Source: a virus
Strand: one strand, 5' to 3'
IMG/VR virus record: IMGVR_UViG_3300025141_014212
Location: 1 to 39,603 of that record
DNA: 39,603 nt
This document shows positions 6,906 to 34,179 of the stretch, one piece after another. Under the pieces are notes generated by a model that saw only the letters and a program-made list of their open reading frames with translations, searched no databases and was not told the DNA's origin. The position numbers and the translations under genes were made by a program. Within the stretch, counting starts at the first letter, position 1. Each line of letters opens with the position of its first letter.

Positions 6906-9815
6906 CTATTCCACCCTAAATTTGAAAACTTCTTCTTGTTCTTTCCAATTTTGATTGTCGTAATACGCCAGTTGGATCCCATACATATATCCGGATTCCA
7001 ACATCGTCATGTCTAAATCAAAATAACTTCCGGATGCATCGTAAGAAAGTTGCGTATGCAACGTGCTTCCGGTGCCAAATGAAATGGCTTCCAAACCGTC
7101 TACCGCCCTAAAGATTCTAAAAGATGCACTCTCTATTGTCTGTATTTCAGGATCTCTTGAGGCGACAGTGTAAATTGTCGGATTCCAATCTTTTTGTCTC
7201 GTGGTTACTCTAAACCTCACCGTTTCGTTTCTGGAGTAAGCAGCCTTCATGTTTTTAATGTTGTTGACATATCCCGGACTTGTGTTGTGAGAACCAGCTG
7301 AAAATCTCTTTAATGTGTCGATACTGCCGGTGTGATATTGTGTAGCACCCAAATACCACACATCGAATAATCGATCTAGATCCGGATCGCTGCCATCTTG
7401 AAAAGAATATGTAGTATAATCCGATAAGTGTGTCACACCAGATAAATCAATGCTCCTATTTCCATCATAGCCGTACTTGTCTTGGTCCAACCACAAAAGC
7501 ATTTGTGAATCAACCCCTCCCGAAAAAGTGGTACTATCTACAAGATCATTTGGCCCTGATTGCCCACCTGTAGTATTTGCAAGAATCACACTATTGCCGC
7601 CAGCACCAGCTGCAGCTGTGAGGTTACATGTTTTATTATCTGAACCTGCGGCGCCCTCGTTTGTACCGGCAATTGCAGCAGTTATTCCAGCAATACCGTT
7701 TGTTGTGTCACCAGCACTTGAACCGTATCGTACTTTTGAAGTATCCGATTGTCCGTTAAAAGCGGAAACGAGCAAAGTTGTGGCATTTGCATAATCATTG
7801 CCAGTGCTAACATGTATTGTATCTGAGCTTGGATCTCCGATTCCGTCCTGAAATGTGACTGTAATAGTTTCCCCAGTGCCGCCGATGCTAGTTGGTACAT
7901 TAATTGTAAAACTATCGCCATTTGCAACAGGATCTGTGTTGATAGCACTAGTACAAGTGGCAGATGTAGAGTTGCCCACATCTGTAATAGTGCGCGCAGT
8001 TATTCCTAGAGCACTGACATTGTTGATGGCAGATTTAATTGAATTCATAATATCACTTGTATTCGAATCACTAAGCATACCAATCGAACCAGCAGCCATG
8101 TCACCCAGGTCATCGGTCACACTATCGTTAGAAACATTAAACGTAAACGTTTGACTATTTCCATCCGAGTCTGTAAGATCGAAACTTTGACCCGACATCG
8201 TAGCCTTATTGGCTGCCCCTTCCAAAGAAAATTGTGCCCACGCAAATCCCGCTCCTGGTGGTCCAGAAGTTGAAGTAGCTGGTGCGTTAATGGCAAAACT
8301 AGCGCTATATATGCCAGTCGACACCTTCCCCCCTTTAATCACTTGTCTAGCTGCATCTGAAACATGTACTTCATCCTTAACCAACTTTAAAGGAAATGTT
8401 TGATATGGCCCCGTATTGGCGGCGCTGCCCGAATGTATATTAACATAAATGGCGCTTGTGACATCCGGGATATCTCTCAAATGCCCCCCAACATAATTAT
8501 AAAGATAAATAGTGTTTAAATTTTCAGGACCAGTCATCAAAGAACTGCTGAAATGTAAGTTAGATCTGTCGTCCTTAATCGCAGAATTCCAACGAGCCTC
8601 AATTAATGGTCGTTTAAAGAAAAATTCTGTCCCCCTTCCGGAAAACTTCTTTGTATAATAAGATCTTTTAGCACCCTCTAAATTGTGAAGAGTGGTGCTA
8701 GTGTGTAGGCCACTAGAGTTGGAATTGTAAGATTCATAACTAGCTGATAAAAACACACCCAAGCCGTAGTTTTTAGTGGCGTCCTCATCTGAAGCCATCC
8801 ACTCTTCAACTAGACTAGTTATATCAAGCTCTAAATCCTCATATCCCTTTTCAAAATATGTTTTATAGTGTGGCAAGTTTGTTGTAGAGGCATAAGTTCC
8901 AGTATGGAAATCGCCGCCAATGACATCCCATGGTGTTTTATCTTTGCCTCCGCTAAAAGTAGCGTTATCCACCAAACTTCCCTGTGAGCCATTAGCTAGT
9001 GTAACATCATTTCCGTCTAAGCCGGCTGAAGCCGTGAGGTGCAATGTTCTATTATCAAAGCCGGTATCACCACCATGTGGGCCGGCAATAGTGGCAGTCA
9101 TGCCGGCTAGCCCATCAGACGTCGTACCAGCAGTTGACCCATAACGCACCAAATCAGTATCGGCCTGACCATTAAATGCGGATACAAGTAGTGTGGTTGC
9201 ATTCGCAACGTCATTACCCACATGTATATGAATGGTATTATCATCGCTAGGTGTGCTTATGGTGCTTTCAAATTTAATCGTAACCGTATTGCCAGATCCG
9301 CCGATATCAGCTGGCACATTAATTGTAAAATTATCCCCATCATTTCTAGGGTCTGTGTTAATCGCACTAGTGCATATAGCAGTAACTCCATCGTCGTTTC
9401 GGTTAATCCAGTTAGCCTCGTCCTTATCGGCATATTTCTCCATATCCGTACCGATACCTTCGTCCCATGTATTAGTGACGCCGGCGACAGTCAGGTGATA
9501 TTTTCTAGGCAACGTAAACGGATGTTTTACGTTAAACATTCTTAAATAAAAGTCTACAGAACCGCTAACCGGTATCGTACCAGCAGATCTGTCATCGATA
9601 ACCTTCGCCACAGAACTTGAAAAATTCAATAAAATACGAGAAAGTTCCTGTGAATATCCAGCACTAGAGGTTGTCTGGCCATAGATCGAAAATACTTCTA
9701 AACTGTCAGCTTCTCCCATATTCGAGCCGGTGGCTCTTTGAGTGTCTGCTAGGCTACTCTTGTAAGCATTGGTAATTGTTGTATCTGCGCTAGCTGTATA
9801 TCGTAATATTGACAT
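6906..9815 (-). CDS. Modular virion (adhesin/baseplate-associated) protein, 969 aa
   Basis: The start ATG at 9815 shares one base with the gp6 stop (TAATG), and its stop touches the start of the giant LamG gene, so the three form one tail-tip operon. No catalytic motif is visible; composition is Ser/Thr/Gly/Asn-rich and beta-like throughout, typical of fibres and adhesins. The first 140 residues and the stretch after 290 (WDVIGGDF, then DLELDITSLVEEWM) look like one DNRLRE-like beta-sandwich broken by an inserted module. A second, tandem insertion spans about residues 535-765. The C-terminal 110 residues (RFRVTTRQKDWNPTIYTVAS onward) look like another beta domain. It sits where T4 has gp7/gp8, but I see no clear homology to them. 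Structural protein is likely; the exact role is unknown. Confidence 0.8.
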   Translation of the reverse strand: MSILRYTASADTTITNAYKSSLADTQRATGSNMGEADSLEVFSIYGQTTSSAGYSQELSRILLNFSSSVAKVIDDRSAGTIPVSGSVDFYLRMFNVKHPFTLPRKYHLTVAGVTNTWDEGIGTDMEKYADKDEANWINRNDDGVTAICTSAINTDPRNDGDNFTINVPADIGGSGNTVTIKFESTISTPSDDNTIHIHVGNDVANATTLLVSAFNGQADTDLVRYGSTAGTTSDGLAGMTATIAGPHGGDTGFDNRTLHLTASAGLDGNDVTLANGSQGSLVDNATFSGGKDKTPWDVIGGDFHTGTYASTTNLPHYKTYFEKGYEDLELDITSLVEEWMASDEDATKNYGLGVFLSASYESYNSNSSGLHTSTTLHNLEGAKRSYYTKKFSGRGTEFFFKRPLIEARWNSAIKDDRSNLHFSSSLMTGPENLNTIYLYNYVGGHLRDIPDVTSAIYVNIHSGSAANTGPYQTFPLKLVKDEVHVSDAARQVIKGGKVSTGIYSASFAINAPATSTSGPPGAGFAWAQFSLEGAANKATMSGQSFDLTDSDGNSQTFTFNVSNDSVTDDLGDMAAGSIGMLSDSNTSDIMNSIKSAINNVSALGITARTITDVGNSTSATCTSAINTDPVANGDSFTINVPTSIGGTGETITVTFQDGIGDPSSDTIHVSTGNDYANATTLLVSAFNGQSDTSKVRYGSSAGDTTNGIAGITAAIAGTNEGAAGSDNKTCNLTAAAGAGGNSVILANTTGGQSGPNDLVDSTTFSGGVDSQMLLWLDQDKYGYDGNRSIDLSGVTHLSDYTTYSFQDGSDPDLDRLFDVWYLGATQYHTGSIDTLKRFSAGSHNTSPGYVNNIKNMKAAYSRNETVRFRVTTRQKDWNPTIYTVASRDPEIQTIESASFRIFRAVDGLEAISFGTGSTLHTQLSYDASGSYFDLDMTMLESGYMYGIQLAYYDNQNWKEQEEVFKFRVE
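7525..8215 (-). repeat. Tandem inserted beta modules, copy 2 in the 969-aa protein
   Basis: Two sub-modules lie in tandem. The first (about residues 535-620, 7960-8215) runs from ATMSGQSFDLTDSDG through SIKSAINNVSALGITA. The second (about 618-765, 7525-7960) is the clear homologue of the module at 8945-9400, sharing CTSAINTDP, FTINVP, ANATTLLVSAFNGQ, VRYGS and TFSGG. The first sub-module resembles the module in the giant LamG protein in layout (TFT strand, a helix with SAIN, then a variable strand pair). Boundaries are judged by eye. Confidence 0.7.
8945..9400 (-). repeat. Inserted beta module, copy 1 in the 969-aa protein
   Basis: It encodes about residues 139-290, from CTSAINTDP to TFSGGKD. 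It matches copy 2 (7525-7960) along its length: CTSAINTDP, a DxFTINVP strand, IGGxG, ANATTLLVSAFNGQ, VRYGS, AGxT, then TFSGG. Protein similarity is obvious while the DNA has diverged, so the duplication is not recent. It interrupts NWINRND and TPWDVIGGDF, which look like neighbouring parts of one domain. Confidence 0.75.
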
Positions 9816-11617
9816 TATTTAATTGTCCCTTTAATATCTAAATTAGGATATTTGATCTCATATATAACATTTTCTGGCATTTCTATCATACGTCCATCTG
9901 GAGAGGTGTATAAATCAACGTTGTATGCTACGCCAGAATAAACACCGCCGGTCTTGTTAACGACTGTAACATCCGTAGTATCAACAACACCCGGTGTTGT
10001 ATTAATTATCTTGTATACATCTGTTATGTGAAATGGTTCTCCAATTTCAGGATTGAAGTTTAAAAAGTTTTTAATCCTCGCAAGAATTGCAGCGAACACG
10101 TCCACCTTGTTTGCATTAACATTAGCTATAGCAACAAAATCAATACCCAAGTTAACCACTTTTGCATCAAGTATATCAACAGTGTCATTGATCATTCTAT
10201 ACTGATTTAGCCAAGTTTTTAAATTTTGTTTAATCGTATTATTGGCTGTCGTCATATATCCAGCTTCGTCCTCCGCTACAACATACAAATTCAGATTTCT
10301 TTTAAAAGAATCACTATCCTGCAGCACATTACATTTTCTAATAGCACCAAATTGTCTAGGCATACGATAAGCCAAGCTTATGTAGTCTTTCTTTGTTACT
10401 GCTCGATTTTGAGTTGCAAAGTTATGAGATATCCTTTGTTTTAATTCATGGGGAGTTGGAATGGTTATATCACCAGTAATGGATTCTATATTTGTTGTCT
10501 CTAAACTATTTCTGACAGTATTGAGTTTGTTGCCATTCGTTGCCCCTGTCGAAGGAAACACAAAGTTAGCTTCCAAAATCTCCGTTATAGAACCAGCAGA
10601 AGCATTAACATTAGATCTTTCATTGGCCCTGTAAATAACTGATAATGACGTGTTCGCAGGAACAACACCAAACTTATCAGTCTCATTTAATACAGCCGGG
10701 TCAAATGTAGCTTGCGTAATATAATCCTTTGCATGTTGTTTTAAAACAACATTCTCTGGCTGATATAGAGGAGTCGTTTTAAGTTCGCTGTCTGAGCCGT
10801 ATCCAAACTGCAAGAACGTTGTACTCTGAGTTGTTTCAATTGAAAATCGTCTAGGTACAGAAACCGCCCTCAATATAGAAGGCACCAATGTCCGATCACC
10901 AGACCGGTTGGCAACGTTAATATAGACCGTGTTCTGTGACAAATGATCAACCTGATAATATTCATGGCCTTCGGAATCAACGATGGAAACCACCTCTGCG
11001 ATAGATTCGCTAGCAAGTGGAATTTTTAAAAACTTTTGATATGTACCAATTGAGATTGTCTCTTTAAAATATCTTCCAGAAAGCACTTTACCACTAGCTT
11101 TAACAGCAAATGTCACTGCATTTCCCGTCTCATCATCAGCTTGCGCGACGACGATCTCATTTGTTGTCTTCGAAAAATCAACATCCTCTGTCAAAATAAA
11201 CGAATTACCACCATCCGAACCAAAACGTGAACCACGCGCAAGAATAGGGTAATAATCTTCATCTGGCGCCGTGCCGTTAGAATCGGCTGGAATTAGGGTA
11301 AAAAACGTCAAAACGCCATGAGAAGACGGCTGATAATCATATTTATAACCCATCTGGCGCCCATGTTTGAGCACATTAGAATATTCGTTAGAAGTTGCCA
11401 GAAAGCTTTCGTTAGCTTGATAGTCCAAATAGAAAGACAAAATGTCGCCAACATATGCAACCGTGTCAAGCATCAAAGAACCAAAGGATGCAATATTAAA
11501 GTCTTTGTATGTATCGGGATAATATCTTTTGGCGTAGTCTACCAGATCAGCTTTGATGGTAGTAAAATCTCTGCTACTATAATCAATGGCCTTTGGAACT
11601 CTCTTATCTATCGGCAT
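9815..11617 (-). CDS. gp6: Baseplate wedge protein, gp6-like (baseplate J family)
   Basis: This 600-residue protein is close to T4 gp6 in length (660) and has the expected layout: an N-terminal part beginning with KAIDYSSRDFTTIKADLVDY, the segment FGSLMLDTVAYVGDILSFYL typical of gp6/baseplate J proteins, a central beta region, and the conserved NRAVTKKDYISLAYRMP motif at roughly residue 405. In T4 relatives gp6 dimers form the wedge ring joining the baseplate centre to the periphery. It lies immediately after the gp25-like gene, as in other contractile-tail phages, and overlaps the next gene by one base. The start ATG at 11617 has only a distant GGAG (11 bases upstream). Identification is firm at family level. 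Confidence 0.93.
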   Translation of the reverse strand: MPIDKRVPKAIDYSSRDFTTIKADLVDYAKRYYPDTYKDFNIASFGSLMLDTVAYVGDILSFYLDYQANESFLATSNEYSNVLKHGRQMGYKYDYQPSSHGVLTFFTLIPADSNGTAPDEDYYPILARGSRFGSDGGNSFILTEDVDFSKTTNEIVVAQADDETGNAVTFAVKASGKVLSGRYFKETISIGTYQKFLKIPLASESIAEVVSIVDSEGHEYYQVDHLSQNTVYINVANRSGDRTLVPSILRAVSVPRRFSIETTQSTTFLQFGYGSDSELKTTPLYQPENVVLKQHAKDYITQATFDPAVLNETDKFGVVPANTSLSVIYRANERSNVNASAGSITEILEANFVFPSTGATNGNKLNTVRNSLETTNIESITGDITIPTPHELKQRISHNFATQNRAVTKKDYISLAYRMPRQFGAIRKCNVLQDSDSFKRNLNLYVVAEDEAGYMTTANNTIKQNLKTWLNQYRMINDTVDILDAKVVNLGIDFVAIANVNANKVDVFAAILARIKNFLNFNPEIGEPFHITDVYKIINTTPGVVDTTDVTVVNKTGGVYSGVAYNVDLYTSPDGRMIEMPENVIYEIKYPNLDIKGTIK

Positions 11618-11656: not shown

Positions 11657-12034
11657 TTAGTCTATAGATATGTTTATGTCTATCCGATCCTTTAGCGAAA
11701 GTGCGGGTACTACGTAGTTTATGATCACAACTAACAAGTGAGGATCTTCCGGTATGTCTCTAAAATCCACAGAAGGGATTTCAACATAGGGCATATATTG
11801 CTTTACCTGCTGGTAAATTAATCCCCTAATATCAGTCTCAATACCTTCAGATTTCATCTTAAACAATTGATGCCTGAGACCTACTCCAAATTGAGGATCC
11901 ATAACCCTCTCGCCCGGTGATGTTAGTAAGAGCATTTTCAAGTTTTGTGTAACCATATCTTTAACCGTTTCGTTCATGGCATACCCGTAAACCGGATCTC
12001 TATCCATCGGTAATTTAGCTGAAAATGCAGGCAT
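11657..12034 (-). CDS. gp25: Baseplate wedge protein, gp25-like (GPW/gp25 family)
   Basis: This 125-residue protein carries the hallmark gp25 EPR core motif as GERVMDPQFGVGLR near residues 56-69, preceded by the helix VKDMVTQNLKMLLLTSP. In T4 and in type VI secretion (TssE) this motif nucleates sheath assembly and binds the gp6 wedge. Length matches the family (T4 gp25 is 132). The ATG at 12034 is preceded by GAGGG seven bases upstream. The gene lies 39 bases from gp6 and 64 bases after the giant ORF. Identification is firm. Confidence 0.95.
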   Translation of the reverse strand: MPAFSAKLPMDRDPVYGYAMNETVKDMVTQNLKMLLLTSPGERVMDPQFGVGLRHQLFKMKSEGIETDIRGLIYQQVKQYMPYVEIPSVDFRDIPEDPHLLVVIINYVVPALSLKDRIDINISID

Positions 12035-12098: not shown

Positions 12099-15000
12099 TT
12101 AAGTTAACTTACTTAAGTAACTTGGTTGATAAGGGTCATGGCCGGGTTGGTCTGGTTTTGGCCAAGCATTATATTTATCACCTTCTAATATCCAGAAGTA
12201 CCCATTTTCATCAGGGCCGAAAACATTTTCGTCGTATTCCTCACCCGCTTGCTTGAAATTATGGCTATCAATACTCTTTTCGTAATCTGCAGCTTTTCCG
12301 TCATCGTAGAGAGAATTTGTTAATATCCAATTAGTGCTTGGATCAATACCTACGCGGAAGCCCGTATCAGGATTTCTATCTTTTTCATCTAGAGCTTCAA
12401 GTCCTGCTATGGTCGCAATTCTCTTGTCTGCGCGCTCACCTGTTTCCGGGTTTTCAAAATATTTCTTAAAGAAATTGCTTTCTTCGTCCATACACATTAT
12501 CGGCGTCGACGTCTTATAAGCTTCTCGGTGTTCTGCCAGTGACATACCCATGACGTTAGACGTCTTTCCCATCCACATCGGACCATATGGGCCATAACCT
12601 AGATGCGACATCATCATCTCAACTTTCCACAAGTTTTCAATCAACCGACGTAACAAATCAGTATGCACCGTTACAGATGTCGTTTTGTACGCCTTGCCGG
12701 TTTCTGCCAAATCAAAATCTGATTTGCCTTCCCAATAAGCTTCATTGTTTGCATTAATCCATTTTTTCCTTGTAGACTTGCTAGTCCATTCTTCGTCTAT
12801 ACCTGTTACAACGTTCGAGAAACCATCTATGTACCAGTCCAATCCATCTCCAGTGTGGCTAATATGGCCAGAACTATTACCATGGCCATCATCTCTGTAC
12901 AAACCAGTTCTCATCCAATAATGGCGGTTTTTGTGTTTAAATATTTTGTCATCGCCGCCTGTAGGATAATTCTTAGTGCCATAATCCATCATTCCAGAAC
13001 CCCATTGGCCACGGGTGTTCATGTACATATAGTCTGCTTCGCCAGCTTCCACTTCTGCTAGAGTTTCCATCGGAGTTTTTTTCGCGGATGCACCAAAAAT
13101 AACTTCCCTAGTCGCTTCCCCCTTCTCCCAATCGACCATGCCTTCACCGGTAATCGCGTATTTGAGTCCAGATGCCAACTTCTCTTCATCCATTCCCGAC
13201 TTATTTGGCAAATCCATAAGATCTTCCATACTTGATAAGCCATCACCAGCCTCTTCTACAAAAACAAATTCAGTCCACTCAATTCTTCTATCCGCCAATA
13301 TTCTCAACACATTGTTAATGCCAGCTTGACTTCCAGAGCTACCCAAATTATGTGTGTCTTCTTTCCAAAATGTTTGCAAGGCAGATTTTCTAGAAGTTCC
13401 ATCGGAGGGCCAATGCTCGATATAATCAGGACTTAATAACTCTTGTGTTCCATCCAAAATAGTTGAAACATGTACGCTATCGGTGACATCAATTGTTTCT
13501 TCTTCACCCTCGTAATTAACAATTGTATAATTCTCTATTGTCTTCCTTGTTTTGCTTCGTGCAACCGCAAACCCTCTACCCCGCATAAGTCCGTGTAAAT
13601 CGTTATCGCCAATAATTGCCTTTAAGGCTGCATTATACCACTTCCACAATGCGAATAAGTGAATCGGATCTTCTGGTGGCCACTTCATCAGAAGCTCTAT
13701 ATCGGGAAACTGGTCAGGGTTAGCCTTAATAAATTCCATTAACTCACTGTAATCTATATCGTAGTCTTTAACCTGCTTTGTTGTTGTCTTCGGTCCTCCT
13801 ATCCCATGTACGGTGGTAGTTTCGGTATCCCAGCCATATGTTATTTTTTCGCCCCCCTCCTTTATTAACTCAAAATTATCAATGGATCCCGGCTTAAAAG
13901 AAACACCCTCTAAAGAAGCGTATCCCATGGAAACCATATTCATGTATATATAAAATAAGTTATTGCAGATATCATCATTTTGCAAAGTGGCACTAGTGCA
14001 AGGTGGAGTATACCATTCTTCCGCAAAATTGGCTGCAGCTATTTGTAACTGTATGGACGATTTACCTATGCTACCTGCGCCAAATGCGGCCAGGTGTTCA
14101 GGAAAGTCTGTCACGTTTTTAAGGCCGCTCGGTAAAATATATTTTTTATAAAAGTCTATAGCCTTAGCTTTAAAATAATCTATAATCTGATCAATTGTTA
14201 AGCTCTTGTAGAACATCCCTATACCGCCACCCAATCTAGATTGCAGCCAAACGTCCGGAGATTCCGTACAATCAAAGCACCCGTCTTCTGGGCCGGTCAT
14301 GTCCATAACTTCCATAAGTCGATTAATCATGCCAATGGCAAATTGTTGACCATCTGAATCTGTGTAGTCTATATCTTCTATAACAGCTTCGTAGTATCTC
14401 TTGAGAAGATATAGTTGATGACAAACCGACAAATCCTGTACAGCTTCAACGCTCTGCATAACCGGTACCATGGAGGTCTGTGAGGGCCAAAGTCCAATAT
14501 CTTCAACTTGCGAAGTTTTAGTCAATGATTTGTCTTCAGCAGCTGCTTTAAACTCTGACGGCACTGCCAACACTTGATCAACCTCCCAAGGTTCAGGCGC
14601 CCACCCGTCTCCTATGGATTTGGCCAACCTAGGTGGCCACTCAGATGGGCCATAACCCTGATCAGGACATTCACCCGTTGCAACAAGAAAAGGTATATTA
14701 GGTTCTATTGATGTTGAATCCGGATCGGGCGCGCCCTGACGCGGACCTAAACTCATACACGGAGTGACACCAAACTCCATTGGCGCCATTTTCGGATCAA
14801 GAGAGTCGATATATTGACCCAAAGTTATAACAATCTCTGTATCATACACAGCTTCAAGCTCTTCCGGATCAGGTGGAGCCGGCGGTAATGGGCAAGGTTT
14901 CTTCTTTCTGAACGCATCTTCCAAGTCATCCCACCACCGGAAATCAACAAACGCTAGCAACCAACCCCAAGGTGTCCATGGGAAAGAGAATGCAGTACTG

Positions 15001-18000
15001 CCATTCATTGGTCCAAAAATATTCCAATCAAAATCATATGCATCTTTATCGCTACTGCCACTATCCCACTTATACCATTCCATTTCAGTGACATAATCCA
15101 TCGTCTTACCAAATTCTCCCAACAAGTGCTCTTCTGGTGGAGGTTCTGGCGGCTCGAAAACCTCAGTTGGTCCGGTGGGAGCTTTAAGGGCGGCAGATTT
15201 GTATCTCATGTATCCCGGATCTAGTAGCTCTGCAATACCCCTGATTATCTGAAATGGCGTCATAGCAATAATTGGAAGAAGGTTAACAGGAAACCCTCCA
15301 AGCGCAAAAGAGGGGCCACCACCATCTGCTTTTGAATCCCCGGACTTATCATCAGTAGAATCACTACGATAGTCATGTTTCATAAGTGTTACAAATAACG
15401 TCTTCAAGCTAGCCTTTGTATTGCTAAACAAAGATCTCATATGCTGATTATTTTTGAAAGCAAATACCGAGTACAACCCAACCATCGAAGAGAATCTAGA
15501 TACATTTATAGACTGCGTTACCAATTTTCTATATGCAGGGTGCGCAGCCATTTTGTTAAAAAGAGCATCTTCATGTTGCCAATATGTCGACACCATCTTC
15601 TCTATTCCAGTTGTGAATGGTATTTCCTCCTCAACTTCCACCAAAGGATGAATATAAACTTTTGCTTCCGCCTTAAGAGCAGTCTGCGTATAAAAACTAG
15701 TATCTTGACCCAAGCCCACATTAGTATATACCGGATTACCATTTTCGTCATAAGCATCGACGGGGTAGGATGTTGGGATTGTCGCTTCATCCGGATCTAA
15801 TTGTAATTTTTCAGCTATCTCTGCAGCTATGGGTATATGCAAGGTCTTTGATTGTTTTGCTTCCACAAACGCATTCATATCCACTTCTTGTATTTCTATA
15901 AACTCGCTAACCCTAAACGCTTTGCTAGATGCATCGCTAAATTTTGTGGCACTCTCTTGTGTCGACGCGCCTATAAGACCATCGTAAAATTCATTGCCGC
16001 CCTCAACATCATTAAAGGGAGAAACGTAACTTAATCTAAGTCCGTATTTCCATGGCGACTTTGCACCTGTCGCCAAGTTATATGGCATATCGACTAATGT
16101 CGGATCGCGATTCCATGTCTGAGTCATGAGCCAGTTAACCCATTCGGTAATGTTCAGAGGTGTTTGTCTTTTTAGACCCTTCTTTAGATTGTAAAGCCCT
16201 TGAGTGCCTTTGTCTGGGAATTTAAGCCATTTTAAATCATGTTTTATGTACCTTTCTAAAATAAAGCCACCAGAAAAGACATCTGCCCCCAATTCAGTTG
16301 TAGCATCAATCCACTTAACATTTTCTTGACCCACAAACAATGGAACAGAAGCTTCCGGGTTTTTCATTTGTCCATTATCAATATCAATTCCAGTTAATTG
16401 AGATTCCTTAATCACACCCTGCTGCTTTAATGCTTCCAAATTTGTGGCAAGGATTTTATCTGTGTTTAAGCCAGAATCGTTCGTTATGGGGCCATGCACA
16501 TTAATTTTTTGTATTGTGCGTTTAAAAAAGCGTTTTTCCGAAGACTTTGGCATAATATCTTCAAAATCTGTAGCCACAGGTATTGGCCTATAATTTGCCC
16601 CACGAGGCTTTTTATTAACGGTGATATTTCCAAAAGGAGTTATTTGTTCTTCCGGTGCACCATATCTCAACATATTCAAAAATTGTTGAGCCGGCTCCAT
16701 ACCCCAACCCTCTTGTCCAGAGAATATCTCCCCTATAAGCGTATCCAGTTGATCCGAAACAACTTTAATCTGTTCCAACGCCATAAACCCAATTGCGTCT
16801 TGCACGGTCTCAAGCTTGAAAAACTCTGGTCCTATTCCTGTTTCCTCATCCACTTCTTGTGGCCCAAAGGGATTTATAAAGGGGTCATTTAAAGCCTTTC
16901 TATCATCAAAGATATCTTTTACCACACGAGTGAAATGCACTGAATATGGATACCCAAACATTTCTTTAACCATTTGCATGGTTTCGCGAGCAATATATTT
17001 TAAGAAAAAGTTGTTTTTAAATATCTCTCCCATCTTAAATTTGGCAAAAACAAATATTCCCCTCAGTGACAATTCAATAACCACCAATCTTATGGCTAAC
17101 CGAACCACACCCTCAAGAGCAGCTTTTTTAAGAGGTGGGTTGTCTTTATCTTCTAGTGAACCTTCAACACAAGCTAGTCGAGCCATTTTCTCATTTATTT
17201 TTCGTAACGCTTCTGGGATATCCAATAAACTAGTTTTTACATCAGGCTCATCATCGGCGCATGGCACACTCAATATTAACGCAGAGGCAAATTCTTGAAA
17301 TTCTTCCTTACTAAACAACTCAGAAGTTGCGATACGATCTGCGATTTTTCTCAGTATATACTGATTAGCCAAATTGTACTCCGTAGCAAAAGCTATAGCC
17401 ATCTGAGAATGTGTTTTGGCATCTTGATCCGCGATCAAAGCTTCTTGATCTTCTGACGTCGATGACGAATTTGGCACAGTTTGTTTTGTCATGCCATTTG
17501 ATTCCCACCCTTCGTACATGACTTCTGAAAACGCTGTAGATTGTGGTGACGTCAAACCTATCAAACTAGCGGCCATTTCTTGATCATCACCACCCGATGC
17601 CAAATAGGCCAGCAGTTTCCCAACCGACTCCCCAGCACTTTCTTCTTTAGAAGTTTCAAGTATTTTTTGTACCGATTCAAGAGGATCCTCAAAGGGATCG
17701 ATGTTTGACAATATAACATCATCATCCAACAAAGTACCACCCTTAATAGAGACATCCATTGTTCTTTCTGTAAATAAGCTTGTGTTACCATCACCGGCAT
17801 CAGCAAAAAGCAGATTGCCGTTTACATCAGTTATGAATATAATATAAGGGTCTTTCTTATCGCCAGCCAAACCGACACGAGGATAAACACAATACAATTG
17901 TATCCCTCGATTAAATATACTCTCTGTACTGTTGAAACCGGGCATTTCATATCTCTTCACTGAAGCCATTTTATACACGTTTCCAACAGGCACATCATCC

Positions 18001-20744
18001 AGCATTGGCAAACCAAAGCCGCCCAAATTCTTAAATTCAGTCGACGGTTGCCACACAAAATTACTTCTATTCTGCAAAGATTGTCTAAGAGAGGGGGCCA
18101 CACCCTTACCAGCACCCTTCAACAACTCAGCGACTGCAGCCGCTTCCAGCTTATTGACCGAGCCTTGATCTTCTAAATCCAAATTGTTTACTTTGCTATG
18201 CATTCCAGGCCCCATGCCGGTTTTGCCGGATTCGCTCCCATGGCCACTCTCTGTATCGAAGAATGTAACTGCCGGCATGAAATTGGAAAGATCTGAATTA
18301 AAAGCTTTTCTGGGGGCTATAAACATCGCACCCAAAACTTCTCCAACCATATATTGCATTGGTGCAAACTCATAAGGGTTGACCAAGTTAGCATAATTAA
18401 TTTTTTCGGCGCCGGGTGGGGGCGTAGCACCACACAAGGGTAGGGGCATTTCTATCGGACTATCTGGATCGCGGTCCATTAATTTAGCTAACTCAGCCAA
18501 TTTATTAACCCGATCCGTTTTCATATTTTCAAGCTGCTCATTACACAATTCCGGATCTATATCTCCGCACTCCAAAGCAGCTTTGAATTTTGGTGGGCAT
18601 GCTCCATCATAAGTACCGCCGGCTGTCTCTCGAATTCTTTCCTCTTGAGCAACCAAACCTATGCACAAGTCTGTGTCTATGAATCCTCCCAAAATTTTAA
18701 ACAGATCTTCTGTTCTCTCCTTGTCCAAACAGCCTGTCAATGTTTGATATCTCTTTTCTATAAGGTTGTAAACCACATCTATAGTGCCAGGATAGGCAGT
18801 ACCGTCCAACAATGCGCAAAGTTCAGCAGTCGTCAAAACCAAAGATAAGTCTTCAAACAGATCGAACATAGCAGCTATCATATCCGCTTCACTCAAATCT
18901 CCACAATGCTTTTCATCAAAGAAATCCATCGCCTTTGCCATCATATCTGGTTGAATTAATTCTGCCAATTCCTCTTTACCACAACCAACATCTTCTATCG
19001 GAAGCTCTACAACCTGTCGTATACAAAGACACAAATCCAATATTTCTTCCAACACTTTTTTAATAAGCTCAACCAATATCTTTGCAATCGTTTTCAATAA
19101 TGCCATCTTTAAAGCGGCTTTAATGGATGCAATCAAATCGCCAACCATCAATCTAGGGAATTTAAAAGATAGCTCGTCTGGCATGCCATCAAATACTTTT
19201 TCCCAGTCTGTATCCATCAACTTGTCTATAAATTTAATTGCGCCGGCCAGTTTTCCTATAATGTCACGACACACATAATCTGGCAAATTCGATATAACAT
19301 TAACAAGAATATCCTTATATTCTGCGACTTTAAGACCAGCATCGGCCAAAGGAGCCGTGCCAAAGAATTGAGCACCCATTTTAATATTGGCTTCTTCTAA
19401 AGCGTCTTCGTAGTTAATCTCTTGTTGGCAGAGAATTTTTAAGTTCTCTGGTGATGGGTATGATTTGTATGTGTCACGAGATGAGTCTAGTGCTGTTTGC
19501 GCTGCCGAATATTTATTTTTGGCCTTTTTGGCTTCTTGTGAAAGCGCCTCATTTGCAGCCGCAGCGTGACCAGCGGATTTAGCCATAGTGTTTACAGCTT
19601 CTTGCATAGCAGCTGCCCATGGGGAGTTTAATAATATCTCTTTTAACGCATCGTAATCAAGTTCGTCCATGGCCTTGCGGCACAACATTTCTAAAATCTC
19701 GTTCAACGTCATATTCAACATCAAACAATGAGCAATCTTTGCCGCTAATGTACCGACGCCGGCGTTGTTAATAACCTCTTTATATACAAAATCGATCTCT
19801 TGAGCGTACTCACTCTTTGCGTATAAGCCCGGTGCTTTGTTTGTAAAAGCGTCGTAAATATAAGATGAAGCTCGGAAATTTCCTACCTTCTCCATTGTTG
19901 CAAGTACACTTTCTAGCTTCTTTCTTCTCCTAGGATCGTCAAGTTTCTTATTCTCAAATTCTGCTTCTTCTTTAGTTCGCAGATGGGGCGCCAATTCGTT
20001 AAACACAGTAGCGCCTTCTGGCCCTCCCCATTCTTCAGCACCAACTTTCTTTGATTGAGAGATATGTCCAAAACCTTGTGTTTCTCCCTCCGTAAAGGCT
20101 TTATCTTCTCTTTTCCTTGTAATTAACGGCACTGGGTATGTGAAAGCTGTGACAAAATCAGTCCAATTTCCACTCTTTAACACCTGTGCGCCGTTCTTTC
20201 CAGTCATATTGTGATGGTAATAGAAATATGCTATGGTCCTAGTACTATACTTTTCTAGAAGGCAATTCAAGCCCTTGGTCAGAGGGGTGGCACCCTTATA
20301 ATCCCCCATTGTTGTGGCTTTTTCTGATTTATCGGATGGCAAGGATATTTTAGATTTATCTGCGACAACCACAAATTTTATCTGATATTCATCATCCAAG
20401 CCAATTTCTATCAGGTATTCTATACCTTCCTGCTCGGTACCAGCCTCATCAAAAATATTAGTAGGCATATCGTTACTTTGAAGAAGACCCCTCAAACCCA
20501 AATTAACGAAATTCTCCAACCTTTCAGCTTCTTTTATTAAATCGACATAAGGCTCGGAAACATGAGTCGTAGAGAGCTTAGATGAAGTCCCCTTCGATCT
20601 CATTATTTTTGTAGCCTGTTCTATATCACCCAGCAATGTTTTTGCTTCAAAAGTTATGCTTCTAGTAAACCCACACTTATCATAATCAAAGGTATCAACC
20701 TTGTCAGGCATAGCTTCCAAATATGAAGCAGGAACTCTGACCAA
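12099..20744 (-). CDS. Giant virion protein ORF, 2,881 aa, probably the 3' part of a larger split gene
   Basis: One uninterrupted frame of 2,882 codons, among the longest ORFs in the window. I do not recognise its family. Visible features: strongly hydrophobic or amphipathic helices at about residues 535-578 (KAALKMALLKTIAKILVEL) and 1210-1252 (LAIRLVVIELSLRGIFVF), Pro-rich linkers near 1860 (EPPEPPPEE) and 1949 (CPLPPAPPDP), a Trp-rich patch near 1925, and a Tyr/Trp/Gly-rich C-terminal third. The listed start is a TTG at 20744 with no good ribosome binding site, and the frame stays open upstream to 20915 with natural-looking protein text (WRSWHFKPGAQN, then GAEFSVLVRVPASYLE). This suggests it is normally joined to the upstream 447-codon ORF. 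Position beside gp25/gp6 implies a tail or baseplate structural role; a tape-measure-like role is possible but unproven. Confidence 0.85.
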   Translation of the reverse strand: MVRVPASYLEAMPDKVDTFDYDKCGFTRSITFEAKTLLGDIEQATKIMRSKGTSSKLSTTHVSEPYVDLIKEAERLENFVNLGLRGLLQSNDMPTNIFDEAGTEQEGIEYLIEIGLDDEYQIKFVVVADKSKISLPSDKSEKATTMGDYKGATPLTKGLNCLLEKYSTRTIAYFYYHHNMTGKNGAQVLKSGNWTDFVTAFTYPVPLITRKREDKAFTEGETQGFGHISQSKKVGAEEWGGPEGATVFNELAPHLRTKEEAEFENKKLDDPRRRKKLESVLATMEKVGNFRASSYIYDAFTNKAPGLYAKSEYAQEIDFVYKEVINNAGVGTLAAKIAHCLMLNMTLNEILEMLCRKAMDELDYDALKEILLNSPWAAAMQEAVNTMAKSAGHAAAANEALSQEAKKAKNKYSAAQTALDSSRDTYKSYPSPENLKILCQQEINYEDALEEANIKMGAQFFGTAPLADAGLKVAEYKDILVNVISNLPDYVCRDIIGKLAGAIKFIDKLMDTDWEKVFDGMPDELSFKFPRLMVGDLIASIKAALKMALLKTIAKILVELIKKVLEEILDLCLCIRQVVELPIEDVGCGKEELAELIQPDMMAKAMDFFDEKHCGDLSEADMIAAMFDLFEDLSLVLTTAELCALLDGTAYPGTIDVVYNLIEKRYQTLTGCLDKERTEDLFKILGGFIDTDLCIGLVAQEERIRETAGGTYDGACPPKFKAALECGDIDPELCNEQLENMKTDRVNKLAELAKLMDRDPDSPIEMPLPLCGATPPPGAEKINYANLVNPYEFAPMQYMVGEVLGAMFIAPRKAFNSDLSNFMPAVTFFDTESGHGSESGKTGMGPGMHSKVNNLDLEDQGSVNKLEAAAVAELLKGAGKGVAPSLRQSLQNRSNFVWQPSTEFKNLGGFGLPMLDDVPVGNVYKMASVKRYEMPGFNSTESIFNRGIQLYCVYPRVGLAGDKKDPYIIFITDVNGNLLFADAGDGNTSLFTERTMDVSIKGGTLLDDDVILSNIDPFEDPLESVQKILETSKEESAGESVGKLLAYLASGGDDQEMAASLIGLTSPQSTAFSEVMYEGWESNGMTKQTVPNSSSTSEDQEALIADQDAKTHSQMAIAFATEYNLANQYILRKIADRIATSELFSKEEFQEFASALILSVPCADDEPDVKTSLLDIPEALRKINEKMARLACVEGSLEDKDNPPLKKAALEGVVRLAIRLVVIELSLRGIFVFAKFKMGEIFKNNFFLKYIARETMQMVKEMFGYPYSVHFTRVVKDIFDDRKALNDPFINPFGPQEVDEETGIGPEFFKLETVQDAIGFMALEQIKVVSDQLDTLIGEIFSGQEGWGMEPAQQFLNMLRYGAPEEQITPFGNITVNKKPRGANYRPIPVATDFEDIMPKSSEKRFFKRTIQKINVHGPITNDSGLNTDKILATNLEALKQQGVIKESQLTGIDIDNGQMKNPEASVPLFVGQENVKWIDATTELGADVFSGGFILERYIKHDLKWLKFPDKGTQGLYNLKKGLKRQTPLNITEWVNWLMTQTWNRDPTLVDMPYNLATGAKSPWKYGLRLSYVSPFNDVEGGNEFYDGLIGASTQESATKFSDASSKAFRVSEFIEIQEVDMNAFVEAKQSKTLHIPIAAEIAEKLQLDPDEATIPTSYPVDAYDENGNPVYTNVGLGQDTSFYTQTALKAEAKVYIHPLVEVEEEIPFTTGIEKMVSTYWQHEDALFNKMAAHPAYRKLVTQSINVSRFSSMVGLYSVFAFKNNQHMRSLFSNTKASLKTLFVTLMKHDYRSDSTDDKSGDSKADGGGPSFALGGFPVNLLPIIAMTPFQIIRGIAELLDPGYMRYKSAALKAPTGPTEVFEPPEPPPEEHLLGEFGKTMDYVTEMEWYKWDSGSSDKDAYDFDWNIFGPMNGSTAFSFPWTPWGWLLAFVDFRWWDDLEDAFRKKKPCPLPPAPPDPEELEAVYDTEIVITLGQYIDSLDPKMAPMEFGVTPCMSLGPRQGAPDPDSTSIEPNIPFLVATGECPDQGYGPSEWPPRLAKSIGDGWAPEPWEVDQVLAVPSEFKAAAEDKSLTKTSQVEDIGLWPSQTSMVPVMQSVEAVQDLSVCHQLYLLKRYYEAVIEDIDYTDSDGQQFAIGMINRLMEVMDMTGPEDGCFDCTESPDVWLQSRLGGGIGMFYKSLTIDQIIDYFKAKAIDFYKKYILPSGLKNVTDFPEHLAAFGAGSIGKSSIQLQIAAANFAEEWYTPPCTSATLQNDDICNNLFYIYMNMVSMGYASLEGVSFKPGSIDNFELIKEGGEKITYGWDTETTTVHGIGGPKTTTKQVKDYDIDYSELMEFIKANPDQFPDIELLMKWPPEDPIHLFALWKWYNAALKAIIGDNDLHGLMRGRGFAVARSKTRKTIENYTIVNYEGEEETIDVTDSVHVSTILDGTQELLSPDYIEHWPSDGTSRKSALQTFWKEDTHNLGSSGSQAGINNVLRILADRRIEWTEFVFVEEAGDGLSSMEDLMDLPNKSGMDEEKLASGLKYAITGEGMVDWEKGEATREVIFGASAKKTPMETLAEVEAGEADYMYMNTRGQWGSGMMDYGTKNYPTGGDDKIFKHKNRHYWMRTGLYRDDGHGNSSGHISHTGDGLDWYIDGFSNVVTGIDEEWTSKSTRKKWINANNEAYWEGKSDFDLAETGKAYKTTSVTVHTDLLRRLIENLWKVEMMMSHLGYGPYGPMWMGKTSNVMGMSLAEHREAYKTSTPIMCMDEESNFFKKYFENPETGERADKRIATIAGLEALDEKDRNPDTGFRVGIDPSTNWILTNSLYDDGKAADYEKSIDSHNFKQAGEEYDENVFGPDENGYFWILEGDKYNAWPKPDQPGHDPYQPSYLSKLT

Positions 20745-20755
20745 TACCGAAAATT

Positions 20756-20815
20756 CAGCACCTATTGACTCACCCTTGCTGTTTTGTGCGCCGGGTTTAA
20801 AATGCCACGATCTCC
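20756..20815 (-). promoter_or_regulatory. Candidate programmed -1 frameshift signal
   Basis: Within the end of the 447-codon ORF, codons ATT TTA AAC form the heptamer T_TTA_AAC at 20801-20795, the canonical X_XXY_YYZ slippery type, in the right frame. A GGAG lies at 20815-20812, exactly 10 bases upstream, the spacing of the stimulatory Shine-Dalgarno-like element in dnaX. A weak 5-bp hairpin (CAGCA at 20781-20777 with TGCTG at 20760-20756) follows 13 bases downstream, further than usual. A -1 slip here enters the frame of the 2,881-residue ORF and would give a product of about 3,335 residues. A lost base near 20915 is the competing explanation. Confidence 0.45.
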
Positions 20816-22105
20816 ATGATAATCCTTGACTAGTTTTATCAGCAGATAACGTTTCCCATACTGCAGTTTTACCATATACATTAGGCCACCTAGCGAACCC
20901 AGCCTTATAGGCGTCTCAACCATGTTGGGCTGATTTTCTGGTATTGTGCTTGAACTAGGATCCCACCATATCTTATTATAAAAGTCTAAAAGTTTTTCTA
21001 CACCCTCTATAGAGGCTTCGCGGAGTCGATCAGGCATCTCACCAATTGACGCGTCCTCATAATCAGTTTTAACAGTTATCCAGTATTCAGCGCCATATGG
21101 CAGCGACTCATTCTTGAATGGTTGACATGAATCACGTTTTCGCCAATCAGGGAACATGATTGATGGGTCACCAGGAAGCGAATCAACAATAAGAATTCTT
21201 TTGTCTAATTCAGTTATAGGTGTTAAATCACACTGTGCAGCAACAATCTTTAACCCGTCATTTGGGCCGCCGTATACTACAGCTGTGCACAACCCCAAAG
21301 CTGGAGAGCCTAAAGATTTTTCTCCAATTATAAATTGTGTCCCACCCCCTATTTTGGCACCCACCAATTGGCCATCGTAGTTTGCAGACTTTGAAGCATC
21401 TGATGGATCTAAATCAGAATAAGTAAGTATATTAGTTTCTACATCAGTTTGTGCTTTTTCCCTTTCTTTCGAAAGCACATCATCAGAAAAAATACCATAA
21501 GAAGCTGCATCGGGAAAAAGCTGGGCGCGATCAGACATCAAGGATAAAATAAGATTTTCACCCTGGTAATTCCAGGCTTTCATTAATACTGGTTTGTCAT
21601 CATTGTAGGGTGCAACATATATGTGTGTTGCTATTGTTGCCGGCTCTTCTACCTTTTGTTCGTCTTCAGCATCAGTAGCCAAAGGTAACTCGTCACAATC
21701 TGCAGGTACGAAGTGTATGTCGCCGTTTTTTTCTTTATATGGATTGACTGGAAGCAAACACTTTTTAAACCAACTTTCTGCATTAGCCGGCCATTTACCA
21801 CCAGTAAATTCAAATCCATACACGCCGGCGGAGCTATCATAAGCTTGCTTTACATAAGTTGCAGCACTTTTTAATAAAGACTTGGCGGGATATTTATACT
21901 GCATCTCTTTTGTAGCTTGCAGCCCCAATATCTTGTAAGATTGGTTTTGTGTCTTAGAAAAAACCTTATTGCCAGGGAATGGGCCTTTGTCAATTAGATT
22001 TTGACCATCTTTGCTATAAATCGTAACAGATAGGCTAGAAGCGCCTTCCATGGTATCATAAGATAGGTTGATCTTAAATTTAATTTTGGGCAACGATGCT
22101 GTCAT
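20762..22105 (-). CDS. Unknown virion protein ORF, 447 codons, probable 5' part of the split giant gene
   Basis: ATG at 22105 has AGGA seven bases upstream, a good start. I do not recognise the family and see no catalytic motif or membrane segment; the sequence is mixed alpha/beta with scattered cysteines (AAQCDLTPI, KRDSCQPF). Up to ENQPNMV (about residue 395) it reads like ordinary protein of this phage. The last 50 residues are unusually Lys/Leu/Tyr-rich and look less natural than the overlapping -1 frame, which joins the following ORF without interruption. The ORF stops only 17 bases before the TTG proposed for that ORF. I therefore suspect that this is the N-terminal part of one very large virion protein. 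Function unknown. Confidence 0.75.
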   Translation of the reverse strand: MTASLPKIKFKINLSYDTMEGASSLSVTIYSKDGQNLIDKGPFPGNKVFSKTQNQSYKILGLQATKEMQYKYPAKSLLKSAATYVKQAYDSSAGVYGFEFTGGKWPANAESWFKKCLLPVNPYKEKNGDIHFVPADCDELPLATDAEDEQKVEEPATIATHIYVAPYNDDKPVLMKAWNYQGENLILSLMSDRAQLFPDAASYGIFSDDVLSKEREKAQTDVETNILTYSDLDPSDASKSANYDGQLVGAKIGGGTQFIIGEKSLGSPALGLCTAVVYGGPNDGLKIVAAQCDLTPITELDKRILIVDSLPGDPSIMFPDWRKRDSCQPFKNESLPYGAEYWITVKTDYEDASIGEMPDRLREASIEGVEKLLDFYNKIWWDPSSSTIPENQPNMVETPIRLGSLGGLMYMVKLQYGKRYLLIKLVKDYHGDRGILNPAHKTARVSQ

Positions 22106-22118
22106 TCACATATCCTAA

Positions 22119-23090
22119 CTAATTTAAATGATGATATCTGCTACAAATATAACCCTTACCAAACGGAAACAAAAACTCAAAATCATCTAACTGCTGATTA
22201 ATCTTATTAAATATAAGATCCAAAGTTTCTGAAACATGCTCCACAATGCGTTTCATGCCACCTTTAAAACACCCAACAGAAAGCGTTGTTGGTATGCCAA
22301 AAAATGGAGAGTGATGAAAGTGATTCATCAATATAATATTGTATTGCATTTGCGCTTGCATAATTTTATGAACGATCCCATTCAACTGTGATATTTCCTG
22401 TTGAAGGTATTTCAAAGCCACCAGTAAATTATCACCCTTTACCATTGGTTGTAATTTGCTACCATCATTTCCCGCTATCAAATCTACGCCGAAAGTTGCA
22501 CTATTAACCTCGCCTTTAGAATTATAACGCTTTCTCTTGGTTACTAATTTAATACCTTCATCCCCACAGATCCTAATACCATCTGCAGACATTCCAATAG
22601 CAGAGTGTCTAGCCGGTTGACCCATAGAGCCTGCCGCTAATGGCTTCCACTTGCCATCCCACCATGCACCCTTTCCATATCCAAGATCCGAATCTATGTT
22701 GGCCATTTCACTAATTTTTATAAAGGCAGCATCGGTCTTTGGGTTTATGTGAGTAGCCACCTCCATACCACCTAGCTTTGCAGAAGGGTGTGTTTCTTTT
22801 TCACCCCTCCCTATTCCAGCAACTAAATATAATTCCCCACAATGATCTTTTCCGAGACCACCAAAGCCAGAATCCAATTGATCCACTCTGTTTTTACCAG
22901 CAATTATGCCGGCATTCGAATTGCCAAAACCAAAAACGAGGTCGTCATCCCTCAATATTGGAGCAGGGTAATCAGTTCTATAACCACCACCCCCTCTTCT
23001 TCTGCTAGGATGGTGTAACGACCTTTCAGACACCCTCTTGCTTCTTTTGGGTTTATTTCTGTATTTCTGATTCTTTGGATCTATTCCCAT
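22119..23090 (-). CDS. Putative baseplate/tail-tip protein, 323 aa
   Basis: Not assigned to a named family. The first 35 residues are very basic (KRSKRVSERSLHHPSRRRGG), which is odd for a virion protein and could contact DNA or be disordered. The middle is Gly-rich, and at about 168-185 it has ADGIRICGDEGIKLVT, a strand pattern like those in VgrG/gp5-type spike stalks. The C-terminal third is helical and probably coiled coil (LLVALKYLQQEISQLNGIVH), ending with His-rich NHFHHSPFF. ATG at 23090 is preceded by AGGT seven bases upstream. It lies 13 bases from the upstream gene and 13 bases from the next, in the virion block just after the hub-like protein. A structural role is inferred from context. 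Confidence 0.72.
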   Translation of the reverse strand: MGIDPKNQKYRNKPKRSKRVSERSLHHPSRRRGGGGYRTDYPAPILRDDDLVFGFGNSNAGIIAGKNRVDQLDSGFGGLGKDHCGELYLVAGIGRGEKETHPSAKLGGMEVATHINPKTDAAFIKISEMANIDSDLGYGKGAWWDGKWKPLAAGSMGQPARHSAIGMSADGIRICGDEGIKLVTKRKRYNSKGEVNSATFGVDLIAGNDGSKLQPMVKGDNLLVALKYLQQEISQLNGIVHKIMQAQMQYNIILMNHFHHSPFFGIPTTLSVGCFKGGMKRIVEHVSETLDLIFNKINQQLDDFEFLFPFGKGYICSRYHHLN

Positions 23091-28172: not shown

Positions 28173-28376
28173 TTAATTTTTAGTTTTTTCAAGCTCTTCC
28201 AACAATTCGTTATCAAACGAAACTGCCGGCGGATTTGAAACAACTAGTTCACTTTGGTCCGGACCTTGCACATTAAAGTTGAATTCTTTCAATGTTGGCA
28301 CAATGTCGCTTTGCTCCAAAAGTGATTTTTGCAACGCCATCATAAGGGCGCCAACTGCTTGATCTGATAATTTCAT
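28173..28376 (-). CDS. Conserved small phage protein, 67 aa, unknown function
   Basis: The ATG overlaps the gmd stop (ATGA) and has AAGGAG six bases upstream, an excellent start. The protein begins [21 protein letters not shown], an amphipathic helix, followed by a short beta part with [17 protein letters not shown]. Proteins of this length and layout recur in cyanophage and other marine T4-like genomes. No function is known. Confidence 0.82.
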
Positions 28377-29350
28377 TTTAAACTCCTTCTTATTTCTTCA
28401 TAATCAGCGTCGTACATCATACGAGCTAACTCTATAAACGATACTTCCGGCTCCCATCCCAGCTCTTTTTTTGCCTTTCGAGCATCTCCCAAGAGATGTG
28501 GCACTTCATGAGGTCTAAAATACCTAGGGTCAACTTCTACATATTTCAAGGGATCACCTAAGCCGGCATAGTTAAATATAATATCCATATATCTCTTAAC
28601 CGAGTTTGCTTGGCCGGTTGCGATAACATAATCATCAGGTTGGCGCTGTTGCAACATCATCCACATGGCGCGTACATAATCACCTGCAAACCCCCAATCC
28701 CTTTTGGCATAGATATTGCCTAAAGTTATTTTATCCTGCAGGCCATGTGCAATTCTTGCAGCTGCCATCGAGATCTTCCTAGTAACAAATGTTTCTCCGC
28801 GCCTAGGCGACTCATGATTGAACAATATTCCACTAGATGCGTGTAGGCCATATGACTTTCTATAGTTTCTTACCAAGTTATGTGCAAACACTTTTGCACA
28901 AGCGTAAGGCGAAGCCGGCATCAACCTAGATTCTTCATTGAAGGGGGTCTCTGAATTATCACCAAACATTTCAGAAGAAGAAGCCTGATAAAACTTTGTT
29001 TCCGGAGAAACCTCTTTAATCACGTTTAACAATCGAAGAGTCCCCATGACTATGCCATCGACTGTATTTTCTGGTACATCGAAAGAAACTCTCACGTGAG
29101 ATTGTGCGGCCAGATTATAGACTTCATCCGGCTTATATTCCATAATCAAACGAAGCATACAACTAGAATCATTCAAATCAAAATACTCAAGTTTAAAATT
29201 AGGGTGCTTGAATATATGATCAATCCTATCAGTACATATGATGGAAGATCGCCTTTTCAACCCTACGACGTTGTACCCCTTATTTAACAAAAACTCAGCC
29301 AAATAAGAACCATCTTGTCCAGTAATCCCAGTTATCAATGCAGTTTTCAC
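28373..29350 (-). CDS. gmd: GDP-mannose 4,6-dehydratase
   Basis: Short-chain dehydrogenase fold converting GDP-mannose to GDP-4-keto-6-deoxymannose with bound NADP. Seen: the nucleotide-binding GITGQDG motif (residues 8-14), SSSEMFG (S125 and E127 match the catalytic Thr and Glu of E. coli Gmd), the YACAK pair Y149/K153, and [16 protein letters not shown], which is diagnostic for Gmd. At 325 residues it is somewhat shorter than bacterial enzymes (about 345-375). The start is GTG at 29350, overlapping the fcl stop (GTGA), with GAGGAG four bases upstream. With fcl it makes GDP-L-fucose; alone the product could also feed GDP-rhamnose or perosamine routes. No mannose activation gene is present here, so GDP-mannose must come from the host or from elsewhere in the genome. 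Confidence 0.96.
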
Positions 29351-30273
29351 TTTACTCCTCGCACACTTGGATAACTAATTGTAAACCATTCGCAAACATT
29401 TTTTAATGATTCTCTTATATTAGAATAATTTTCTTTTCTCCAACCCAGTTCAATTAGCTTAGAATTATCAGAAGGCTTTCTATACTGCCCTTTTGGCTTG
29501 CTAGTATCCCACACAATGTTGCCCTTAAACTGCAATATGTCTGCAATCATTTCAGCAATCTCTTTAATTGTATACTCTTCTGTGTTGCCAATATTAATAG
29601 GATCTTTTTCCTCATAGTGATCCAAAAGAAACAAAAGTATATCTGCCAAATCTCTAGAATAGGTAAATTCTCTCAAAGGGGAGCCGTCTCCCCACAAAAG
29701 AATATCAGAGTTAGTTTGTTTAGCTTCATACATCTTGTGAATTATAGCAGGAATAACATGACTATTTTGCAAATCAAAATTGTCACCTTCTCCAAACAGA
29801 TTGTTTGGTACTGCAGTTATAAAATTACAACCATACTGTTTACGGTAGGCTCTAGATTGCACGTCCAACATTCTTTTGGTATATGCATATGCAAAGTTTG
29901 ATTTATGTGGGCGCCCTGAATGAATCCGACCCTCCACCAAAGGATACTCTGTCTGATCCGGATACACACACGTGCTTAATAAAGACACCATCTTCTTCAC
30001 ACCACTCTTGTGTGCACAATTCAAAACATTGGTGTTAATTAATATGTTGTCATAATAAAAGTCTGCCATGTTATCCATATTAGCCTTTAAGCCGCCAACC
30101 TTTGCGGCCAAATGTATGACATAATCTGGTTTGTGATAATCAAACAACTTTTCAACCTGACACCTCATTCTCATATCACATTGTGACGATGACACATAGA
30201 ACGCTTCCGGCCTAATTCTCTTTAAAGCACTGCCAACCATGCCAGTGCCACCTGTCACCAAAACACTGCTCAT
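29347..30273 (-). CDS. fcl: GDP-L-fucose synthase (epimerase/reductase)
   Basis: Converts GDP-4-keto-6-deoxymannose to GDP-L-fucose using NADPH. Seen: GGTGMVG (residues 8-14), LLSTCVYPD with S100 and C102 matching the catalytic Ser and Cys of E. coli Fcl, the pair Y129/K133 (FAYAYTKRM) and H172 in [12 protein letters not shown], matching the catalytic His. Length 308 fits the family (about 315-321). ATG at 30273 overlaps the upstream stop (ATGA). All catalytic residues are intact, so the enzyme is probably active. It is the partner of gmd immediately downstream. Confidence 0.95.
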
Positions 30274-33393: not shown

Positions 33394-34179
33394 TTAAATA
33401 TACAACTCATACTTTCCTTCATATTTTTTAAACAAATCATGAAGAAAATTAACACCATTTTCTGGAGTATATCTCAGAAGAGGACGCATGTCCTCGTTGT
33501 GACTGAAGTACCTCTCCCAGCCGGCGTATCGATAAAACCGATCATAGGCTTCTTTGGCTGTATATGTTTCAAGTCCCGGATTTTTATCTTTGTGCACAAG
33601 AAAAACATTATTGTAAGTTAAATTTATTAATTCGTAACCATATTCTTTTGCCAATTCACACATCTTAGATAAACTCATTCCATAAAAATGAGAACTATCC
33701 CACCAATAATCTGGATCATATTTCACAGTAAATTTTATGGGGGGCGGGATTTTTTCATTAATTTCTGCAACTATCAATGAAGGAGTGAATTTGTTTAACA
33801 GAGCTTTTAAAACAAAGTAATCATACCCATCAATGTCTATATCAATAAGCTTTGGAGTTATATTATCTGTTATACCCTCGATGAGATCTGTTGCATTTGT
33901 TGGAGTTATCTTGGTAGTTATTAAATTAAAATTATTTAAATTCCAATTATCATAATAAGAAGCTTTTAATAAATCACATTCAAAGAATATAGTCAAATCC
34001 GAATCTATTATAAAATCCATGGCTAGATTATGCTCATAACTGGATCCGATATCTATATAAAACTTGTTATCTGGATCAATTAATTCTATATATTTTTTTA
34101 ATGTAAGTTTGTCATTATTGCTATTGTTGTTTATTTTAGCAGCTTCGAATTCTACTTCTTTGAATTTAAAATGGGTCAC
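33394..34179 (-). CDS. FkbM-like methyltransferase, 261 aa
   Basis: Contains the SAM-loop motif FYIDIGSSYEH (residues 40-50), an acidic FFECD after the next strand, and KLIDIDIDGYDYFVLKALL (110-128) followed by PSLIVAEIN, the characteristic core of FkbM/Methyltransf_21 enzymes. Such enzymes often O-methylate sugars. The start is GTG at 34179, overlapping the upstream stop (GTGA), with AGGA six bases upstream. Its location among glycosyltransferases supports methyl capping or decoration of the glycan. The last 60 residues (AKEAYDRFYRYAGWERYF) are extra helical sequence of unknown role. Confidence 0.78.
   Translation of the reverse strand: MTHFKFKEVEFEAAKINNNSNNDKLTLKKYIELIDPDNKFYIDIGSSYEHNLAMDFIIDSDLTIFFECDLLKASYYDNWNLNNFNLITTKITPTNATDLIEGITDNITPKLIDIDIDGYDYFVLKALLNKFTPSLIVAEINEKIPPPIKFTVKYDPDYWWDSSHFYGMSLSKMCELAKEYGYELINLTYNNVFLVHKDKNPGLETYTAKEAYDRFYRYAGWERYFSHNEDMRPLLRYTPENGVNFLHDLFKKYEGKYELYI

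Follow-up and report, generated by a model that had tools for sequence, protein, structure and literature searches.

A giant baseplate-region gene of an uncultured contractile-tailed phage is very probably one gene interrupted by the loss of a single base

Two long open reading frames of an uncultured phage overlap in different frames, which raises the question of whether they are joined by programmed frameshifting, are separate genes, or are a single gene broken by a lost base. The window, the whole stretch of DNA that we analysed, is a 39,603-base IMG/VR virus record. ORF1 (P0001; 22105-20762, minus strand) starts with ATG and encodes 447 aa, and ORF2 (20744-12099, minus strand), encoding 2881 aa, has only a TTG start. 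The initial annotation had described this TTG as having no ribosome binding site, and a check of the coordinates bore this out, with no Shine-Dalgarno-like sequence ahead of position 20744. As also described there, the ORF2 frame, which is -1 relative to ORF1, continues open upstream as far as a TGA at 20918-20916. The resulting open stretch (20915-12099) overlaps the end of ORF1 by 157 nt and holds no ATG, GTG or TTG from 20915 down to the TTG at 20744. The features of the locus are as follows.

22119..23090, minus strand: conserved ~320-aa gene (323 aa in the window), found ahead of the giant gene in relatives.
20919..22105, minus strand: 5' portion of the giant gene, the ~395 codons of ORF1 ahead of the break, from profile matches and BLAST to relatives.
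20890..20919, minus strand: where the frame break, a net loss of one base, most likely lies, from the codon-usage change-point; the upstream bound is the ORF2-frame TGA.
20762..20918, minus strand: out-of-frame tail of ORF1, ~51 codons, probably not normally translated, from the codon score.
20812..20815, minus strand: GGAG, ahead of the heptamer by 10 nt and probably matching by chance.
20795..20801, minus strand: T_TTA_AAC heptamer, probably a chance match.
12099..20915, minus strand: 3' portion of the giant gene (ORF2 frame, 2,938 codons), beginning with the remainder of the conserved domain.
11657..12034, minus strand: baseplate wedge gene, gp25-like, immediately following the giant gene.
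9815..11617, minus strand: gp6-like baseplate wedge gene.

Since the gp25-like and gp6-like wedge genes adjoin the giant gene, we assign it to the baseplate region of a phage with a contractile tail, and its position suggests a product that belongs to the virion. A second giant ORF (3-6905, at least 2,301 codons) lies downstream of these wedge genes and runs off the contig end; the ORFs of relatives at this place reach up to about 2,850 codons. Elsewhere in the window, two adjacent nucleotide-sugar epimerase genes of one family (phrog_540; 28373-30273) lie near glycosyltransferase genes (34176-37429), together a sugar-processing cluster in a phage.

PHROGs and Pfam gave no useful match for either ORF or for the relatives of the giant, and tblastn of the ORFs against 50,697 phage records gave none. 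A degenerate DNA pattern for DAYKAGFA likewise found nothing. Direct searches of IMG/VR and phage records with P0001, P0002 and the N-terminus of the ORF2 frame found no close relatives, and we therefore reached relatives by way of gp25, of gp6 and of the 323-aa gene, whose own predicted structure has a pLDDT of 38. Alignment of gp6 led to 80 IMG/VR loci and alignment of the 323-aa gene to 80 more, a few contigs being in both sets. The giant gene occurs in the relatives examined, where, as in the window, it lies between the ~320-aa gene and gp25, and its N-terminal domain is common to the window and these relatives.

Pairwise BLAST shows that single ORFs in relatives match both ORFs of the window. 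In one of them (L058, 3485-9559), residues 29-85 match residues 319-378 of P0001 and residues 109-300 match the ORF2 frame, so that a single homologous protein spans the junction. An iterative profile of this domain (~279 residues), built from 22 IMG/VR relatives with the window excluded, matched the window in the ORF1 frame over profile positions 1-57 (E 9.8e-10) and in the ORF2 frame over positions 44-272 (E 1.1e-28). With a profile of 55 relatives the ORF1-frame piece scored 43.6 bits and the ORF2-frame piece 113 bits. Residues ~310-381 of ORF1 are thus the first part of a conserved N-terminal domain, and residues ~1-310 form an extension for which no relatives were detected. The giant genes of relatives carry differing N-terminal extensions.

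The comparison with homologues that the initial annotation had proposed showed that in 76 of 89 loci a single ORF carries the domain from close to its start. At 12 more only its later part was detected, within one ORF, and a single locus (L070) divides it between two genes. The structure of the domain, predicted with AlphaFold from the L102 copy and 40 sequences (L102 and L058 are one contig), is one globular fold (pLDDT 93.6, pTM 0.86). Its least certain loop, a variable one at about residues 55-66 of the L102 model, coincides with the frame change of the window and sits between a helix (32-53) and two strands (77-83 and 95-101). Model residues 1-112 are one small alpha/beta unit, which two separate proteins would, on this model, cut apart. 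The best fold match in the PDB, to Lpp20 over model residues 1-112, is weak (Z 6.5), and we do not read such matches as homology. The N-terminal domain of the giant family is confidently predicted, belongs to no Pfam or PHROG family and has no confident solved relative. Together, a conserved domain that is cut by the break, lies in a single frame in relatives and is predicted as one fold strongly supports the proposal that the two ORFs belong to one gene.

Homologues with two ORFs, the second with its own start, would speak for two genes, and L070 is the only one of the 89 loci in which the domain is divided in this way. There (1238-9528) the N-terminal domain falls into two genes at the loop where the frame of the window changes, and the second gene has a GGAGG and an ATG (2125), so that two-piece versions may occur naturally. 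Both L070 proteins start with a related head of ~58 residues (44% identity, E 5e-8) that by eye resembles a coiled coil; it looks as though the head was duplicated when the gene was split. At another locus (L087, 3356-9572) the last ~500 residues are a separate ORF with an AGGA and an ATG (8070), so the giant family also tolerates a C-terminal split. Two separate genes in the window, the second starting independently at the TTG 20744 or further downstream, are nonetheless barely credible. The ORF2 frame lacks any start codon between 20915 and the TTG at 20744, this TTG has no Shine-Dalgarno sequence, a start at 20744 falls inside a conserved strand of the domain, and some 57 coding-like codons would stay untranslated. 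We rejected the arrangement of L070 for the window because the start signal is missing.

Codon usage puts the change of frame near 20915, some 100 nt ahead of the heptamer. In the ORF1 frame the 36 codons that lead up to the heptamer score -9.0 bits (-2.3 from amino-acid composition, -6.7 from synonymous choice), a value reached by just 0.017% of 11,605 true-coding windows. In the ORF2 frame the same stretch scores +3.5 bits, at the 31st percentile of true-coding windows. Were the ORF1 frame the true one, so large a difference between the frames would be without parallel: among 142 windows whose -1 frame is open, none reaches it. By a normal approximation, the ratio favouring the ORF2 frame is ~200. 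As the windows overlap, neither count represents independent trials. The preference holds with training on the giant gene only or on the other genes only and is present in all three 12-codon blocks. A change-point posterior is concentrated at 20914-20902 and amounts to 0.0001-0.0002 at the heptamer. By this measure the downstream frame reads as coding up to the break, and the upstream frame does not read as coding as far as the slip site.

Profile scoring was unable to place the break because the linker is variable: 51 composite readings, in which the switch was moved along each position, scored 157.9-158.9 bits throughout. Upstream of 20801 the ORF2 frame reads AGFAR and TAVWETLSADK, and the ORF1 frame reads LGSLGGLMYMVK. 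When the two readings of the linker were compared pairwise with 55 homologues, 18 favoured the ORF2 frame and 28 the ORF1 frame, with 9 ties, a slight lean to the ORF1 frame up to the heptamer.

This lean is a point in favour of the programmed event proposed initially, a -1 frameshift at T_TTA_AAC, stimulated by GGAG, that would yield both a short form of 447 aa and a giant fusion. The signals themselves are plainly there: an X_XXY_YYZ heptamer (20801-20795) stands within the overlap in the frame of ORF1, the upstream frame, and GGAG (20815-20812) precedes it with exactly 10 bases between, as in dnaX. A heptamer from the strong list together with any Shine-Dalgarno-like match is expected ~0.02 times in the 157-nt overlap, a figure counted after the fact. 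X_XXY_YYZ heptamers occur in frame at 2.6 per kb in the genes of the window, and TTTAAAC occurs in frame four times in its 34.2 kb of coding sequence. One of these (10064) lies inside the gp6-like gene with GAGG 11 nt upstream, which tells against the programmed frameshift; the signal is only mildly unusual.

The weak downstream hairpin of the initial annotation exists, but the RNA following the heptamer is no more stable than shuffled sequences (z = 0.07, 1.23 and -0.17 for 60, 80 and 100 nt). Neither the frame change nor the site is conserved in relatives; a frame change at the heptamer without a gene start was found in none of the 89 domain loci, L070 being a true gene split. The short form would, by the predicted fold, terminate within one globular domain. 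With codon usage ahead of the heptamer that resembles non-coding sequence, no notable structure and a break that is a singleton, we consider the programmed frameshift very unlikely. A lineage-specific -1 frameshift, whether it uses the heptamer or some unusual signal around 20915, that sets the ratio of the 447-aa form to a product of more than 3,300 residues is a shade more doubtful still. Were it true, the short form might perhaps be an assembly partner, as the two halves of L070 might be.

Codon usage and the singleton nature of the break thus point to the other possibility in the initial annotation, a base lost near 20915 in the phage or in the assembly, and the equal weight given there to this and to frameshifting shifts towards the lost base. 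Very probably the locus encodes one baseplate-region protein of ~3,334 residues, and its gene has lost net one base between ~20919 and 20890. The gene is flanked by the conserved ~320-aa gene on one side and by gp25 on the other, and from ~20915 on the ORF2 frame carries the codon usage of the genome. In an intact copy, ribosomes would read the whole frame without recoding and make a single baseplate-region protein.

Breaks of this kind were also found in relatives. Among 88 loci examined for breaks (456 kb of giant-gene sequence), two giant genes have -1 breaks, L130 (3550) and L150 (2635-2692), at positions that differ from that of the window. The second part in L130 has no start codon, L150 has none with a Shine-Dalgarno-like sequence at the break, and neither break has a slippery heptamer. 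Both, in metagenome contigs, are probably unprogrammed, and given two such breaks among 88 loci one unprogrammed break in the contig of the window is unsurprising.

By a published classification of frame transitions (PMC3711429), singletons that homologues bridge should mostly stem from sequencing errors. For the window, we judge a consensus or assembly error in the metagenomic contig to be roughly twice as likely as a natural mutation, because the giant gene, elsewhere uninterrupted through 2,938 codons, is present in relatives and set among baseplate genes, and is thus probably needed. As a special case of the lost base, a true mutation in the sampled population, leaving a defective or decaying gene, is a possibility that we hold only tentatively. 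Natural populations do contain indels (PMC3711429), and there is no homopolymer, where assembly slips are commonest, at the break. Against a true mutation, no second lesion occurs across ~3,330 codons, and loss of a gene that is present in the relatives examined should be harmful.

Read as recoding, the locus would be a striking giant fusion; read as a frame break, it calls for caution in annotation. The break is probably ordinary, and the contig is to be annotated as carrying one interrupted gene. At 2.6 per kb in frame, slippery heptamers are weak evidence by themselves. As a by-product, the analysis brings to light a widespread family of giant proteins, so far uncharacterised, whose genes stand immediately ahead of gp25 in IMG/VR contigs.

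Phage tails have a known case of programmed frame change in their G/GT chaperone genes (PMC5009743). The window shares with -1 frameshifting in dnaX and G/GT a slippery heptamer in frame (PMC5009743), and with dnaX a Shine-Dalgarno-like element 10 nt upstream of it. Unlike both (PMC5009743), it has no notable downstream structure and no conserved site, and codon usage places the change ~100 nt before the heptamer. The gene is, moreover, a giant one of the baseplate region, whereas G/GT is a small tail chaperone gene. The window resembles the singleton frame transitions of GeneTack (PMC3711429) in that homologues bridge the junction, relatives do not share the position and a conserved signal is absent; it does not differ from them in the features tested, which do not tell error from mutation. 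A further likeness is to the giant genes directly upstream of gp25 in IMG/VR contigs such as L058, L078, L088 and L130. The giant gene of the window differs from these in its N-terminal extension of ~310 residues without detected relatives and in its frame break, and it shares with them the order of ~320-aa gene, giant gene, gp25 and gp6-like wedge gene, the N-terminal domain, and weak but significant similarity further along.
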